A stretch of DNA of 64,000 nucleotides from Methanosarcina vacuolata Z-761. Lineage in GTDB: Archaea; Halobacteriota; Methanosarcinia; Methanosarcinales; Methanosarcinaceae. A program made the position numbers and the translations under genes. Below the pieces are notes generated by a model that made no database searches, had not been told where the DNA came from, and worked only from the letters and a program-made list of their open reading frames with translations. Below, piece by piece: positions 15,610-22,368 of this stretch (its first letter is position 1; every line of letters starts with the position of its first letter). The stretch spans positions 434,001 through 498,000 of the forward strand of contig NZ_CP009520.1 of the NCBI RefSeq assembly GCF_000969905.1, given 5' to 3'.

Positions 15610-15969
15610 ATGAAAAAAATGTTAAAGATTATGGCAATGCTCCTTGTTATTAGTGCTGTTGTCTTTGCAGCTGGCTGCTCTGATAAGACGGCTGACACAA
15701 CAGCAGAAAATGGATCTCAAGAAGAAGTGACTGACCAGACTCCAGTAGCAGACAATGGAACTCCATCCGACAATGTAGCTGCAGAAGTTCCACCAGCCGA
15801 GAACGGTACATTTGGAAACGACTCTGACAACATGTCTGTCGACAACATGTCTGTCGACAACATGTCTGATGACAACATGTCTGATGACAACATGTCTGAT
15901 GACAACATGTCTGATGACAACATGTCTGATGACAATGACTCTATAATTGGCAATAATTCTAGTCTTTAA
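15610..15969 (+). CDS. small repeat-bearing lipoprotein
   Basis: A 119-residue exported lipoprotein. It has a short basic N-terminus, a hydrophobic segment (MLLVISAVVFAAG) and a lipobox AAGC that would place a lipidated Cys at about residue 22. The mature part is acidic and low-complexity, with a run of eight DNMS-type pentapeptides (SDDNM/SVDNM) encoded by a 15 bp tandem repeat at about 15826-15935. I chose ATG 15610 because AGAGG lies about nine bases upstream and the lipobox then has correct spacing; the frame is open further upstream to 15544. No function is known. Repeat number should vary between strains. Confidence 0.75.
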   Translation: MKKMLKIMAMLLVISAVVFAAGCSDKTADTTAENGSQEEVTDQTPVADNGTPSDNVAAEVPPAENGTFGNDSDNMSVDNMSVDNMSDDNMSDDNMSDDNMSDDNMSDDNDSIIGNNSSL

Positions 15970-16230
15970 TTTGACAGAATAAAAAAGGAATTATCCAAGT
16001 AGCCTTTCTAATAGGCTACAATTTTAGTTTTTTTAAAACGACTTGATATAAATTGACTCTGATTTTATATCTCTTCACATCGAAAATTTCCTAGAAAATT
16101 TTCTCAATACAGTAATCTGCAATTTTTTTACTGCTGCTATCAGAGACTACGTTAACATATATTTAACAATCTTATCTTATAACAATAGCTTCGAGCTCAA
16201 TGAAGTTAATCTGAAGATCCTTTCGTTTCT

Positions 16231-16365
16231 TGTTTTATCCTGATTTGTTTTATCCTGATTTGTTTTATCCTGATTTGTTTTATCCTGATTTGTTTTATCC
16301 TGATTTGTTTTATCCTGATTTGTTTTATCCTGATTTGTTTTATCCTGATTTGTTTTATCCTGATT
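16231..16365. repeat. 15 bp tandem repeat, nine perfect copies
   Basis: The unit TGTTTTATCCTGATT is repeated nine times without a mismatch. Open frames through it are artefacts of the repeat. It lies in a 575 bp gap between convergent genes, where nothing else was recognised. Confidence 0.95.
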
Positions 16366-16544
16366 TGGTGTCCTCTTCAAATTGTATGGGTAAAAGTAAA
16401 TTTCATGTATTTTCTGAAAATTTATGAATTCTATCAAGTATGATAAACAACATCAAGCGATGCATCCAACTTTCTAACTAGATGATAAAATTGTGGCATA
16501 TTTATTGAGTTGGAAAATTCTCCATTGAATTAGAAGAGGACACA

Positions 16545-17522
16545 TTAATTCTTAATTTTCCTTCTGCAAAGCCTCAGAGTATGGCAGCGCAGGCTCCCTC
16601 CTCCTGCAAGCAAGGCATCCGGGTGAAAAGAAATAATCTCAATACCTTCATTTTCAAGGTCTTTCCTGGTTTTCTGATCAAGTGCGGTATCGTAGTGAAA
16701 AATAGTTCCGCTCTCTAGAGGAACAAAAGAACAGGCCAGGCGGCTTTGCTCGGAATCCGAAACAGAAATGATTTCCATCCCCTTCTCACGCATGAAAGCT
16801 TTAAAATCGATTTTTTCTCCTGAATCTTCCGTAAACAGACAGCTTTCTTCAAATGCAGGTAGATAAGCAAGAGCAAGATCTTCCCTTATCCTGTTGAAGA
16901 CAGTATCAGGGTGCATGTACCTCCTGGCTTTCGGAACCCGGACGTAAATAACTTCACTGAACTCTTTGAGAATGTTTGAAACAAATTCTCTTATAAATGG
17001 GTAAGTGTGCCTTTCCGTATCAGCTACAAAGACTGTTTCTTTTGAGAGCAGGAGACAGCCTTCGAAAAACCCTTCATCTCCATTGAATTCGCTGAGAATG
17101 GGAATTCCCAGATTATTCAGGGCTTCCTTTACAACAACTTCTTCCTTCTCTCTTGCAGGTGGACGCATTCTTGAGAGAATAGCCCCTTTTCCGGAGATAA
17201 CTGCGGTATCATGCAAGAAAGTTAAATTTGGCATCTTCTTAATTAGGCCAGTGTTTTCGTCCACATAATCTTCAAGTTCATAGACCCTGACCCCGTTTGA
17301 TTCAAGTAGCTCCTGATAATTTCTATGCTCTTTAATATACCCGGAAATCTCAGGAACCTTATCGTATAGCCAGTGTTTATAGTTCAATTCGTTGAGTAGA
17401 GAAAGTTCTTCCCCAGGCGTATGCATCAATACGCTTTTCAGCCTCCCAAGTTCCTCGCACCCATAATCGATACCTGATCTCGTTTTCCTGGCTCTACCCA
17501 GTCCATTTATCTCGCAACCCAT
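16545..17522 (-). CDS. arginine-deiminase-superfamily enzyme (deiminase/amidinotransferase-like)
   Basis: The 325-residue protein has the guanidino-group-modifying fold. Family landmarks occur in order: VLMHTPGEELSLL, MPNLTFLHDTAVI (Asp105, as in the deiminase NLxFxRD motif), GFFEG (Glu154), MHPDTVF (His204 and Asp206, as in MHLDTVF) and a C-terminal GGGSLRCH with nucleophile Cys313. All four catalytic positions are present, so it should be active on an arginine- or guanidino-like group. It is shorter than arginine deiminase (about 410) and lacks that family's extra helical insertion, and its Cys motif differs. It lies 32 bases downstream of an EgtD-like methyltransferase and in the same direction as a radical SAM enzyme, which suggests a biosynthetic role, not arginine catabolism. 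Confidence 0.78.
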   Translation of the reverse strand: MGCEINGLGRARKTRSGIDYGCEELGRLKSVLMHTPGEELSLLNELNYKHWLYDKVPEISGYIKEHRNYQELLESNGVRVYELEDYVDENTGLIKKMPNLTFLHDTAVISGKGAILSRMRPPAREKEEVVVKEALNNLGIPILSEFNGDEGFFEGCLLLSKETVFVADTERHTYPFIREFVSNILKEFSEVIYVRVPKARRYMHPDTVFNRIREDLALAYLPAFEESCLFTEDSGEKIDFKAFMREKGMEIISVSDSEQSRLACSFVPLESGTIFHYDTALDQKTRKDLENEGIEIISFHPDALLAGGGSLRCHTLRLCRRKIKN

Positions 17523-17554
17523 ACCCTGAACCTACCTTTTGATCCGTTTCATCC

Positions 17555-18580
17555 TCATATACATTTTTTTGCAAGGATTATGGCATTTGCCTGGTCTTCA
17601 CTCCGGAAAGCCTTGAGGATTTCAAACCCGCAAATTTCCAGGAAAGCTGTAATCTGGTCATATGTATATTTATAAGTAAAACCCATACGGATGATGTCTC
17701 CTTCCCTTAAGCCTATGGTTTCTGTCCCGATTTTGAGTTCGGTATCCTTCAGGATATACAAACTCTTCCTTGTCCTGTATACTCCCCCTATCTTTGAGTT
17801 TACATGCGCAAGCAAGAGTTCAAAATCAAAATCCTCAGGAGCCATTCCGTACTCAAGCAGGGGATACATATTGAAGAGGGCATTCTCTCTTGAGGCATAT
17901 GTGCCCAGTACGGACCTCCTTACCGATTGTCCCTCTGTGCCTTCAGTAGGTAGCAGGTTGGCATCAAAGAAAAAAAGGTCTCCCTGCTCAAGGTTTTCAT
18001 GGACAAGCTGAAGAATAAACTCTGGCTCGTAATTGCAAAAGGTATTTCCTAAAACGCAGAACAGAATCGGAAGGCGCCAATTTTCTTTAAGAATGGCTAT
18101 GTCCTCTATGAAACCAACTATTCCCTTCTTTTCAACAGGCAGGTTATCTACCTTTTCAAGAGCGATGTCTACAAATTCACTGTTTATATCGATGGGGTAA
18201 TAGCGCATCGACACTTTTCCTGAGGAAGGGTTTTCAGCCAGATTCTTTCTCACTAGCGCCTCGAGAAAAATTCTTTCCTTCTCCCCGTTTCCCACTCCCA
18301 CACTTACGAGACTCATACCTGTCGGAATAAATCTTACGATTGAGTCCAGATTTTTTTCCAGAAGGACTTTGAGTTGCCTGGCTACAGGAAATGTCTTTGC
18401 CTCATCAAGTTTCAGCCAGTTTTTTGTTCCTCCAGTGCCCATATATAGAAGGTAATCAGGCAGTTCATGGTTTTTCAGGCATTGACAGAGTCTTTTTTCG
18501 ATGTCCTCCTTACTGGTCATTACTATCTTTTCATTATTTTCCGAAACCTGTCCAAACTCCACTCTTCCTGTACTGTTCAA
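17555..18580 (-). CDS. EgtD-like SAM-dependent methyltransferase
   Basis: The 341-residue protein resembles the histidine N-alpha-methyltransferase (EgtD) family. It shows an N-terminal helical cap, PTGMSLVSVGVGNGEKE as the SAM glycine loop, YYPIDINSEFVDIAL as the acidic SAM-ribose strand, LPILFCVLGNTFCNYEPEFIL, and a GMAPEDFDFELLLAHVNSKIGGV region like EgtD's substrate-binding beta module. EgtD makes trimethylhistidine for ergothioneine in bacteria and fungi; the other ergothioneine genes are absent here and the substrate is unknown. The start is TTG 18580 behind GGTGAG; the first ATG is 20 codons later. It is flanked by the deiminase-like and radical SAM genes on the same strand. Confidence 0.75.
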   Translation of the reverse strand: MNSTGRVEFGQVSENNEKIVMTSKEDIEKRLCQCLKNHELPDYLLYMGTGGTKNWLKLDEAKTFPVARQLKVLLEKNLDSIVRFIPTGMSLVSVGVGNGEKERIFLEALVRKNLAENPSSGKVSMRYYPIDINSEFVDIALEKVDNLPVEKKGIVGFIEDIAILKENWRLPILFCVLGNTFCNYEPEFILQLVHENLEQGDLFFFDANLLPTEGTEGQSVRRSVLGTYASRENALFNMYPLLEYGMAPEDFDFELLLAHVNSKIGGVYRTRKSLYILKDTELKIGTETIGLREGDIIRMGFTYKYTYDQITAFLEICGFEILKAFRSEDQANAIILAKKCI

Positions 18581-18661
18581 TTTCTCACCATCTCCTCAAA
18601 TTATTCAACAGTACATTTCTTTATTTATTTCTTTTAACTTATTTATTGCCTGAGGTTTGTT

Positions 18662-18811
18662 TTTACCGTTCTTCTACCGTTTTTCTACCGTTCTTCTACC
18701 GTTCTTCTACCGTTCTTCTACCGTTCTTCTACCGTTCTTCTACCGTTCTTCTACCGTTCTTCTACCGTTCTTCTACCGTTCTTTTATCATTCTTTTACCA
18801 TTCAATTACCA
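18662..18811. repeat. 11 bp tandem repeat, about 11 copies
   Basis: The unit TTCTTCTACCG is nearly perfect over about 120 bp and then degenerates. It lies between the radical SAM gene and the EgtD-like gene on the minus strand. The unit length is not a multiple of three, so the open frames across it are meaningless. Confidence 0.95.
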
Positions 18812-18820
18812 ATCTGTCAT

Positions 18821-19963
18821 TTATTTGAAACACTGCTGGCACTCCATCCTGAGGGCTTTAAGAGGGTCGATGCCATGTTTGATTCCTACGCTGTAAGCAT
18901 ATCCCCTGCAGCCTATGCACTCTTCATTATGTTCACAGTTCCTGCACCTTCCCTCGAGCATTTTATCGATGTTTCGGACGTATGTGAAAAGATCGGAATT
19001 ATATATCTCCCGAAGGCTCATTTTATTTACATTATAGGGATATTCCCCACCAACTCTGAGCGCAGGATGTTCGTCCAGTTTTGTAGGTGCACAGGGCCGG
19101 ACATTTCCTTCGATATTGATATACAGGCTGTATAAGTGTTGAAGGCAGCCGCTTGCGGTAATTGGTGTGTAGGGCAGCCAGTCATACCCGTAATATTTCT
19201 GGTCAATTTCCAGCAGTTTTAATTTATATTCCTTAATCTCGTCAGCCGTGAGTAGCTTATCCTCAAGTTCGTCATTTGCCCTGCCCGTAGGCGTTAGAAT
19301 TTCCATATTGGGAAAAATATTGTTTTGCCTGCAGAAATGCCAGATCTCCTCAATTTCTTCCAGATTCATTTTGTTACTGACGAAAGAAACTCCCAGACGG
19401 AGTTTTCCAGGCCCTGCCGGTTTTGAAAATCCTGCTTTGAGAAGACTTCGAAGCCCCTTTCTGATATCTTCGGAGGCTCCTGCTCTTCCTGCGAGGTAGT
19501 CCTGAACCTCAGGCTTAAGGGAATCTAACTTTCCCATTACTGAGGCATTGTGTTTGTACAGGAACCCTGCGAGTTCTTCTGTCATCAAAACCGTATTCGA
19601 AAAAATCACCGGGATTATTTCCAGGGAATCAATATAGGCTATTAAATCCCTGAAACTCGGGTACAGGGTCGGTTCTCCTCCCCCAATTACGACCACAGAC
19701 CTGATCCCGAGTTCTTTTGCCTCCTGAATAATACGCTTGAGATTATTAAAATCGGCTATTTTTGCCGAGTCCTCACCACTCTGTGCATAGCAGTAGCGGC
19801 AGCGGAGATTGCAGGATTTGTTCGTTTCAAGACGTATGGCTAAAAGCTTGTTTGAGTTCCGTGCCTGATGGGCTTCCTGTGCTCCGTACATGTACCCTTT
19901 CAACATCGGAGGAGGTGAAAACAAGCTTAACGTATCCAGGTTCTTCGGTTTTTCCTCCCACAT
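18821..19963 (-). CDS. radical SAM/SPASM domain enzyme
   Basis: The 380-residue protein has the radical SAM cluster motif CNLRCRYC (Cys51, 55, 58) and the GGGEPTLYP SAM-binding strand. Its C-terminal SPASM-type region is Cys-rich: a Cys before YINIEGNVRPC (Gx4C), then CRNCEHNEECIGC and a final CQQC. That arrangement would hold two auxiliary [4Fe-4S] clusters, as in enzymes that modify peptides or small molecules. No precursor peptide was recognised nearby. It is first in a minus-strand set with the EgtD-like and deiminase-like enzymes, though a 240 bp repeat-filled gap separates it from them. No SD precedes ATG 19963; a TATA-like stretch close upstream would suit a short-leader transcript. 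Confidence 0.85.
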   Translation of the reverse strand: MWEEKPKNLDTLSLFSPPPMLKGYMYGAQEAHQARNSNKLLAIRLETNKSCNLRCRYCYAQSGEDSAKIADFNNLKRIIQEAKELGIRSVVVIGGGEPTLYPSFRDLIAYIDSLEIIPVIFSNTVLMTEELAGFLYKHNASVMGKLDSLKPEVQDYLAGRAGASEDIRKGLRSLLKAGFSKPAGPGKLRLGVSFVSNKMNLEEIEEIWHFCRQNNIFPNMEILTPTGRANDELEDKLLTADEIKEYKLKLLEIDQKYYGYDWLPYTPITASGCLQHLYSLYINIEGNVRPCAPTKLDEHPALRVGGEYPYNVNKMSLREIYNSDLFTYVRNIDKMLEGRCRNCEHNEECIGCRGYAYSVGIKHGIDPLKALRMECQQCFK

Positions 19964-20220
19964 GTTAAAATATATATTTAACGTTCCTTATCAAATTACA
20001 AGAAACTAAGTGTTTTTTTGAGTCCAATCTTCTAATTTATAAAAAGTAATTTGTTGCCAGTAAATAGTGTATTCCGGTTACTTCGGTTCTTTTTGTAGTT
20101 AATTCATACAGTGCGACAAATGCGTAACAAATCCAGGATTATTCTTCTTGTTAAATTTAGCAAGGTTTAACTATCTCTCTCACATATTTGTTTTCAATCT
20201 TTAGGGGAGAATGACTGACA

Positions 20221-21051
20221 ATGAACAGAAAGGTAACAATTTTTGGAGGGATTGTATTATTTATTCTTCTTTTGCTTGTGCTGGGTTCAATCTATCTGGA
20301 GAATCAAAACGAGGAAATGTATAATGATAGTCTTATGAGTAATTATGAATACAATATAATTATAGAAAGCAACAGCACGCTGCAAAATGTAACTTTATAT
20401 TTGCCGGTTCCTGTTTTTGAGAATGAATCCGAGGTAGGACTGGAAATGGTGAATGGTGATTATTACAATAAGCCTTCAAATTGGAATCTTAGCCTTACAG
20501 ATACTGAGCATGGACCAATGTTCAAAATAGAAGCTGCCGAGATTAAACCGGTTTATCATTCCCTTCCTGTAGCCGTACCCGAGCCTGAACCTGGGTCCGA
20601 GAATATTGAAGATGAAGTTCAGGAAGAAGAACAGATAGTTGAGTCCAATGAATATTCAGAAGAAACCCCAGTTTTGACATCTTTTGATTTCGGGACTAAC
20701 GTAAGGGCTGACCATATGATTAATACCAGATTCCCTGTTGGTAATGAGTCCGTGCTCCTGCCCAAAAATAATCTCCGAGAATCCGAAGAAGGTTCGGAAA
20801 TTCCTCTACCTGAGCATATCAACCCCGAATATTTTGATTATGAGAGCCTGGTATATGCACACTATGATGCGTCTCCTGATACCGAGGTTCAGATTTTTGT
20901 TCAGATGGATGGCCGAAACGAATGGTGGATTTACGGCTGGCAATCTAATGGTTACAGTGATAGGATTTCTATCCGACTTTCAGGCCCTCAGGAAGGATGG
21001 GTAAAGGCTGAAGGAAAACTTATTACAGGAGATGGAGTTTACAAAGAATAA
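20221..21051 (+). CDS. membrane-anchored extracytoplasmic protein, unknown
   Basis: Not recognised. The 276-residue protein has a single hydrophobic segment at residues 7-28 that serves as signal anchor, then an acidic extracytoplasmic domain with beta-strand character and a Glu-rich linker near residues 120-145. The C-terminal half has an aromatic-rich core (NEWWIYGWQSNGYSD). A GGGGAG ribosome site precedes the ATG by about ten bases. It diverges from the radical SAM gene and is followed by a repeat. Its sequence does not suggest a link to the biosynthetic cluster. Confidence 0.72.
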   Translation: MNRKVTIFGGIVLFILLLLVLGSIYLENQNEEMYNDSLMSNYEYNIIIESNSTLQNVTLYLPVPVFENESEVGLEMVNGDYYNKPSNWNLSLTDTEHGPMFKIEAAEIKPVYHSLPVAVPEPEPGSENIEDEVQEEEQIVESNEYSEETPVLTSFDFGTNVRADHMINTRFPVGNESVLLPKNNLRESEEGSEIPLPEHINPEYFDYESLVYAHYDASPDTEVQIFVQMDGRNEWWIYGWQSNGYSDRISIRLSGPQEGWVKAEGKLITGDGVYKE

Positions 21052-21160
21052 TCCAGAGACTAATTCCAGAGACTAATTCTAGGGAATAATTCCAGAGACT
21101 AATTCCAGAGAATAACTCTAGAGACTAATTCCAAAGAATAACTCTAGAGAATAACTACTG
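21048..21160. repeat. imperfect tandem repeat of about 16 bp
   Basis: Units of the form ATTCCAGAGACTAATTC and AATAACTCTAGAG alternate about seven times directly after the preceding stop codon. Confidence 0.85.
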
Positions 21161-21271
21161 AGAGTAATATTCTCTTTTTCTACTTTTTGGAAATTTCTTT
21201 CCTGCTACAAAGTTCTTTTAGGTTTTCTGTTCTTAAGTTTATTATAGTTCTCAACCCTATCTTATTTTGGG

Positions 21272-22252
21272 ATGTTCGAAGAAATCAAGGTTAAAAAAGC
21301 TCTGAATCGGATAAATAAATCCAGCAGGATTAATCTACCATTTCATTGGGATTTGAATATTTACAGGGGCTGTGAACACGGTTGTAATTACTGTTATGCA
21401 ATGTATTCTCATAGCTATCTGGAAGAAAAGAAGAAGTCTGCTTGTGCAGAGCCAGGATTCGGGAGAGAAAGCTGTTCTTCCGCAGTGGATAAAAAATGTG
21501 CTTTTTTTCAAAAAATTTACGTAAAAACGAATGTTGCAGAAGCTCTTGAAAAGCAGCTTGCAGCACGAAGCTGGAAAAAGGAAGTAATTAATATAGGCGG
21601 AGTCTGCGATAGTTATCAGCCTGTAGAAGCAAAGTACGGATTGATGCGCGAGGTTCTGGCGCTGATGATTAAATACCGAAATCCTGTCACTATATCTACA
21701 AAATCGGATCTTATCCTCAGGGACTATGACCTTCTTTCAGAACTTGCTGAACTAACATCTGTAAATATTGCAGTTACGGTTACAACGGTGGATAAAAAAT
21801 TAAGTGCTCTACTGGAACCCTTGGCTTCGTCACCTGATAAACGGTTTTCAGTCCTGCGGGCTTTTAAAAACACATCTGCTGTTACTGGAATCCATATGAT
21901 GCCAATTCTTCCTTTTCTTACTGACAACCCTCAGAATCTCGAACAAATTATGTCTCTTGCAACCGAATGTGGTGTGGATTACGCTCTGCCTGGAGTTCTG
22001 AACCTCAGGGGCGAAACCAGAAAGCATTTCTTCGGTTTTCTTGAACTTAACTTTCCCGAACTTGTGGATCCTTACCGCAAATTGTATGCAAAAGGAGGAG
22101 CTGATATGGCCTATAAGGCCAAACTTTATGAAATGTTCAGCTCTCTTATGGAAAGATATCATTTGTCTGGAGACTACATGAAACCCATGCAGGCAAAACT
22201 TTCCCGTTCGAAGCAGCTCACGTTAACGGATTTCTCAGAAAATGATTCTTGA
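21272..22252 (+). CDS. radical SAM protein, SplB/COG1533 (Rv2578c-like) family
   Basis: The 326-residue protein has the COG1533 signatures: [16 protein letters not shown] with Cys34, 38 and 41 binding the radical SAM cluster, [31 protein letters not shown] and [13 protein letters not shown]. It is related to spore photoproduct lyase, but most archaeal members have no known substrate. It carries a Cys-containing insertion (about residues 52-80) between the cluster motif and the [12 protein letters not shown] strand. It is monocistronic and ends in a repeat shared with the convergent gene's 3' side. Confidence 0.85.
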
Positions 22253-22368
22253 TTTTAGTAAGTACTACAAGTGCAGGTACTACATTTCTGATTTTTTAGT
22301 AAGCACTACAAGTGCAGGTACTACATTTCTGATTTTATTAAGTACTACAAGCGCAAGTACCACAAGTA
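22250..22368. repeat. about 41 bp tandem repeat, three copies
   Basis: Each copy contains AGTACTACAAGTGCAGGTAC and TACATTTCTGATTTT; the third is diverged. It fills the gap between two convergent genes. Confidence 0.9.

Follow-up and report, generated by a model that had tools for sequence, protein, structure and literature searches.

Genome comparisons show that three neighbouring genes, encoding a radical SAM/SPASM enzyme (RSAM), an EgtD-fold SAM-dependent N-methyltransferase (EGTD) and a short arginine-deiminase-like enzyme (DEIM), form one functional unit. Our tentative reading is that this unit makes a small nitrogen-methylated amino-acid metabolite. A single small-molecule product is suggested because the trio stays together, has a private control element and is lost together.

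The genes lie consecutively at positions 16545-19963 of the window, the 64,000-nucleotide stretch of DNA analysed here from a Methanosarcina-type genome of 4.56 Mb. All are on the minus strand, and all open frames are intact. RSAM (18821-19963, 380 aa) is identified by its open frame, Pfam and its invariant Cys residues, EGTD (17555-18580, 341 aa, TTG start) by its open frame, Pfam and Foldseek, and DEIM (16545-17522, 325 aa) by its open frame, Pfam and alignments with arginine deiminase (ADI). The minus-strand spacer between RSAM and EGTD (18581-18820) is 240 bp long, compared with ~55-160 bp in most relatives, and contains a 12.7-copy, 11-bp tandem repeat (18664-18803); the minus-strand spacer between EGTD and DEIM (17523-17554) is 32 bp. 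A preliminary description had reported three enzyme genes in a single orientation with their catalytic residues in place, and the open frames, Pfam and orthologue alignments confirm it. Among the matches listed, none of the three proteins reaches an NCBIfam equivalog cut-off. Other short tandem-repeat arrays surround the trio, within and between genes (15825-15935, 16230-16367, 21045-21168 and 22250-22364).

The order and orientation RSAM-EGTD-DEIM were constant wherever the region was complete, in 17 loci and in further genomes of Methanosarcina and a sister genus. The proposal of a biosynthetic cluster would have been undermined by separation of the genes in related genomes; they remain neighbours there. 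Strong support for the proposal comes from conserved gene order, shared occurrence, an empty site from which the trio is cleanly missing, and an upstream element peculiar to the trio. The recommended survey of archaeal genomes bears this out: in a phylum sample of 393 genomes, 19 carry EGTD and 18 carry RSAM, with an overlap of 18 (hypergeometric 4e-30, uncorrected for kinship). Both genes are confined to the same two of 136 genera and absent from the other 134, and no RSAM match at E 1e-35 or better occurs outside these two genera in the phylum sample. DEIM is found at high identity only in the same two genera, and scanning contigs with DEIM, a method sensitive only to close relatives, gave matches confined to Methanosarcinaceae. 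Pairwise distance matrices of the trio genes correlate at 0.90-0.96, species kinship again uncorrected, and all three genes have dN/dS values within 0.08-0.20.

Some genomes lack part or all of the trio. Two genomes (G057 and G147) have no trio gene. In G147 the order CMD, rSAM2, o276, UbiA, ABC transporter (GlnQ-HisM-binding protein) and YigZ is kept with the trio alone missing, and ~220 bp separate o276 and UbiA at the empty site. Loss is a simpler explanation for G147 than a state before gain, because the trio is present in both Methanosarcina and the sister genus. In another genome (G115) RSAM is intact, EGTD is broken and DEIM is truncated. In L014 and L015, the loci that diverge most, the trio is still accompanied by o276, whereas most of the other neighbouring genes are different. 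The pathway would be non-essential, since it has been lost in several species, and repeated loss points to a secondary-metabolite-like or niche role. Separately, G073 (L111) has EGTD alone, next to UbiA and with an open frame, with RSAM and DEIM gone; because EGTD is kept there by itself as an open frame, it may have a function of its own, or this may be early decay.

Only one noncoding stretch upstream of RSAM is strongly conserved: CACTTAGTTTCTT-N5-TTGATAA, at 19988-20012 on the minus strand. This 25-base element, CACTTAGTTTCTTNNNNNTTGATAA in the window, lies ~49 or ~125-135 bases ahead of RSAM and hardly varies between the two genera. All trio loci whose upstream DNA was available contain it, with up to two mismatches (two in both L014 and L015). 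At that same tolerance it occurs exactly once, at the trio, in each of eight RSAM-carrying genomes (8/8), and in none of five genomes lacking RSAM. With up to three mismatches the window contains a single match, where 0.03 would be expected. The element is not a regulon motif; it looks like a putative dedicated promoter or operator, with a leader element as another possible role. An RNA structure is unsupported, since a hairpin spanning the element falls short of significance (z -0.95). A 20-residue frame across it (HLVSxNLI) was rejected as a peptide: it has no conserved start, is broken in L008, and its synonymous positions are invariant.

Flanking genes were considered as additional members and rejected. 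The UbiA-like prenyltransferase gene adjoins DEIM in most relatives, and it, the polar amino-acid ABC transporter and o276 all occur in genomes without the trio. The window genome, conversely, has the trio without UbiA. At window positions 15970-16544 there is no UbiA-like gene or ABC transporter, which many relatives retain, and 15-bp tandem repeats occupy 16230-16367.

RSAM contains the Pfam Radical_SAM and SPASM domains. Its CxxxCxxC motif (C51/C55/C58) is invariant in 22 orthologues, as are the eight Cys of the SPASM region (C273, C291, C340, C343, C349, C352, C375 and C378). Column identity in the orthologue alignment averages 88%, and dN/dS against relatives is 0.08-0.12, indicating purifying selection. 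Solved relatives recovered by profile comparison include SkfB, MoaA and PqqE, and RSAM shares the radical SAM core and SPASM Cys pattern with these enzymes, with NirJ2/AhbD and with the tungsten-oxidoreductase maturase. It nevertheless falls below every equivalog cut-off listed for SPASM enzymes (98.2 bits against 500 for NirJ2), and its NCBIfam matches include several peptide maturases, all under cut-off. A search for defence systems returned generic viperin-like radical SAM matches and nothing more.

EGTD matches Pfam Methyltransf_33 at 80.7 bits (cut-off 23), has a SAM domain and is under purifying selection (dN/dS 0.12-0.20). Foldseek ranks EgtD structures first for its predicted structure, which has a pLDDT of 71 (4pip, 4pio and 4uy7), with ~15-17% identity in the structural match. 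No EGTD relatives were found on viral contigs or on plasmids. Residues were mapped by a profile alignment with M. smegmatis EgtD and seven EanA-like proteins, to which EGTD is 21-24% identical. The alpha-amino-acid ligand N166 of EgtD is retained as N183, and Y39 corresponds to Y46. In EgtD, E282 and S284 hold the imidazole of histidine; in EGTD they are replaced by G300 and T302. N183 and G300 are both invariant in 22 orthologues. Combining E282A with M252V reportedly shifted the substrate of EgtD to tryptophan. Because an invariant Gly replaces the imidazole-binding Glu, EGTD probably N-methylates the alpha-amino group of an amino acid other than histidine. Its best NCBIfam match is the EasF family (TIGR03439), at 69.4 bits, far under the cut-off of 205.55, and ergot-type genes are absent nearby. 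EgtD homologues in archaea in general have been noted in a review of archaeal thiols (PMC7278568).

DEIM matches the Pfam ADI family at 98.2 bits (cut-off 22.8) and is under purifying selection (dN/dS 0.08-0.14). The reading of DEIM rests on alignments, since its structure prediction (pLDDT 45) is too poor for use. Aligned to ADI, residues N99, F102, D105, R124, E154, R171, H204, D206 and C313 are invariant in 21 orthologues. D105, E154, H204, D206 and C313 coincide with the catalytic positions of solved arginine deiminases, the Asp-Glu-His-Asp-Cys set common to the ArcA/DDAH superfamily. R124 and R171 are at positions that we take to be those of the two Arg binding the arginine carboxylate in Pseudomonas ADI, the presumed source also for the guanidine-binding roles that we assign to DEIM's ADI residues. 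DEIM is not an ArcA: it scores 110.8 bits against 489.1, has 325 aa against ~410 with gaps opposite ADI's extra region, and reads EGCL in place of the EGGD motif. Short ADI-like proteins elsewhere have varied gene contexts, so the reaction of DEIM is not readable from homology. DEIM relatives on plasmids are all under 30% identical. Two haloarchaeal ADI-like proteins (L110:6353-7243, minus strand; L174:4965-5843, plus strand) have neither the catalytic Cys nor the trio, and their genes adjoin those for an Lrp regulator, an aminotransferase and either an aldehyde dehydrogenase or a nitrilase. They are possibly a non-catalytic or repurposed branch, and they indicate that a full catalytic set, as in DEIM, is not automatic for the fold.

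The likeliest substrate of the trio would be a free, arginine-like guanidino amino acid, since ADI's ligands for guanidine and carboxylate are present in DEIM, and the substrate-binding Asn of EgtD in EGTD; the product would be N-methylated and radical-modified. We infer the reactions, their order, the product and its benefit from sequence comparisons. DEIM would attack free L-arginine or another guanidino amino acid at its guanidino group via a covalent amidino intermediate on Cys313, with Asp105, Asp206, His204 and Glu154 taking part in catalysis, and the outcome would be either hydrolysis to a citrulline-type product or amidino transfer to another amine. RSAM would perform one radical C-H functionalisation using the 5'-deoxyadenosyl radical, and its SPASM region would hold auxiliary clusters. 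EGTD would methylate the alpha-amino group, up to a trimethyl betaine. EGTD has no acidic residue where EgtD has E282, which would fit a substrate with a neutral side chain, such as one whose cationic guanidine DEIM had already removed.

Several other explanations compete with a metabolite pathway. The three could be unrelated enzymes, adjacent by shared ancestry. The relatives are close, so much of the synteny is inherited, and rSAM2, o276 and UbiA are also often retained nearby. However, those genes vary independently and the trio is nearly all-or-none, cleanly missing in G147, intact in L014 and L015 despite the different neighbours, and served by a single upstream element. We consider mere adjacency very unlikely. 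The trio might instead supply one modification of a Methanosarcina cofactor, tRNA or protein; the very strong conservation of RSAM suits this idea, and some modifications are as lineage-specific as the trio. Its complete absence from two Methanosarcina genomes and its decay in others, hence its non-essentiality, together with the existence of relatives that have the same core metabolism and no trio, make such a modification quite improbable.

A peptide pathway, in which the trio would modify a ribosomal peptide by radical crosslinking or epimerisation, N-terminal methylation and citrullination, gains some appeal from the frequent role of SPASM radical SAM enzymes in peptide maturation, from SkfB among the nearest solved relatives of RSAM and from the sub-cut-off matches to peptide maturases. 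The preliminary description had advised looking for a conserved short precursor ORF nearby. When the neighbourhood of 23 relatives and the window was searched, none was found within ~1.2 kb upstream, in the gaps or ~1.5 kb downstream; the small-ORF comparison yielded just UbiA-overlapping frames or short, weakly conserved stretches and no candidate precursor. Pfam also finds no recognition domain in RSAM, and DEIM and EGTD retain the ligands of enzymes acting on free amino acids. We therefore think a ribosomal peptide product unlikely. Far less probable is a variant of ergothioneine or hercynine synthesis of the anaerobic Ean type, for which the EgtD fold of EGTD and the occurrence of EanA/EanB-type clusters in sister genera might be cited. 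Tests of 12 genomes from Methanosarcina and the sister genus, 10 of them trio carriers, showed none with the EanB-type rhodanese, the sulfur-transfer partner. EGTD itself scores 50.8 bits against the EgtD equivalog cut-off of 290.9 (TIGR03438) and is distant from EanA-like proteins. The absence of EanB and the loss of E282 argue against ergothioneine or hercynine as the product. Of the suggested histidine- or arginine-derived molecule or peptide, histidine is disfavoured by the invariant Gly and a peptide is disfavoured too, while an arginine-derived molecule is compatible with the data and favoured by the conserved ADI-type ligands.

The earlier statement that no other ergothioneine genes are present is correct for EanB in the window genome and the tested trio carriers. 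It does not extend to relatives in other genera of the same family, where loci L042-L048 (e.g. L042:215-3614) contain a cluster of an EanB-like rhodanese, an EgtD/EanA-like enzyme and a SufS-like protein. This cluster is a probable anaerobic ergothioneine pathway in methanogens. Like the trio, it includes an EgtD-type enzyme and belongs to a family of anaerobic archaea; unlike the trio, it has a rhodanese as its second enzyme and neither RSAM nor DEIM, and it occurs in sister genera.

A bolder version of the metabolite pathway, possible but doubtful, is that the trio, confined to Methanosarcina and a single sister genus, makes a new archaeal natural product, namely an amino acid derived from arginine, N-methylated and modified by radical chemistry, and that the RSAM of several species contains pyrrolysine. 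If this is true, production in the species with a TAG codon in RSAM would depend on the pyrrolysine (methylamine) machinery. To our knowledge, few small-molecule pathways of methanogens have been described apart from those for energy metabolism and cofactors. Genetic manipulation is feasible in Methanosarcina species, and the clean natural absence of the trio in one species should make product discovery straightforward. A full-text search of the open-access literature found no description of the trio or of this combination of enzymes; prior mention elsewhere is possible.

The TAG lies in frame at RSAM codon 80 in five species (L020:228-1367; L021:217-1356; L002:5703-6842, also L023; L009:5581-6720, also L029; and L012:5607-6746); the window has CAG. 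For the part downstream of this codon, pairs of TAG-bearing genes give a dN/dS of 0.07-0.10 (dS reaching 0.77), no different from TAG-free orthologues, and PylS is present in 12/12 genomes tested. Such strong purifying selection after an in-frame TAG suggests a pyrrolysine-containing protein. The simplest reading is that the codon is read through as pyrrolysine, making these orthologues probable pyrrolysine-containing radical SAM enzymes. This fits the dual use of UAG in Methanosarcina (PMC2933860) and points to pyrrolysine beyond the methylamine methyltransferases. An early in-frame TAG also occurs in the EGTD of G128, UBA293 and UBA402, with no start codon between the TAG and the conserved core; the EGTD of G083 has a TAG too, but with a possible ATG downstream.
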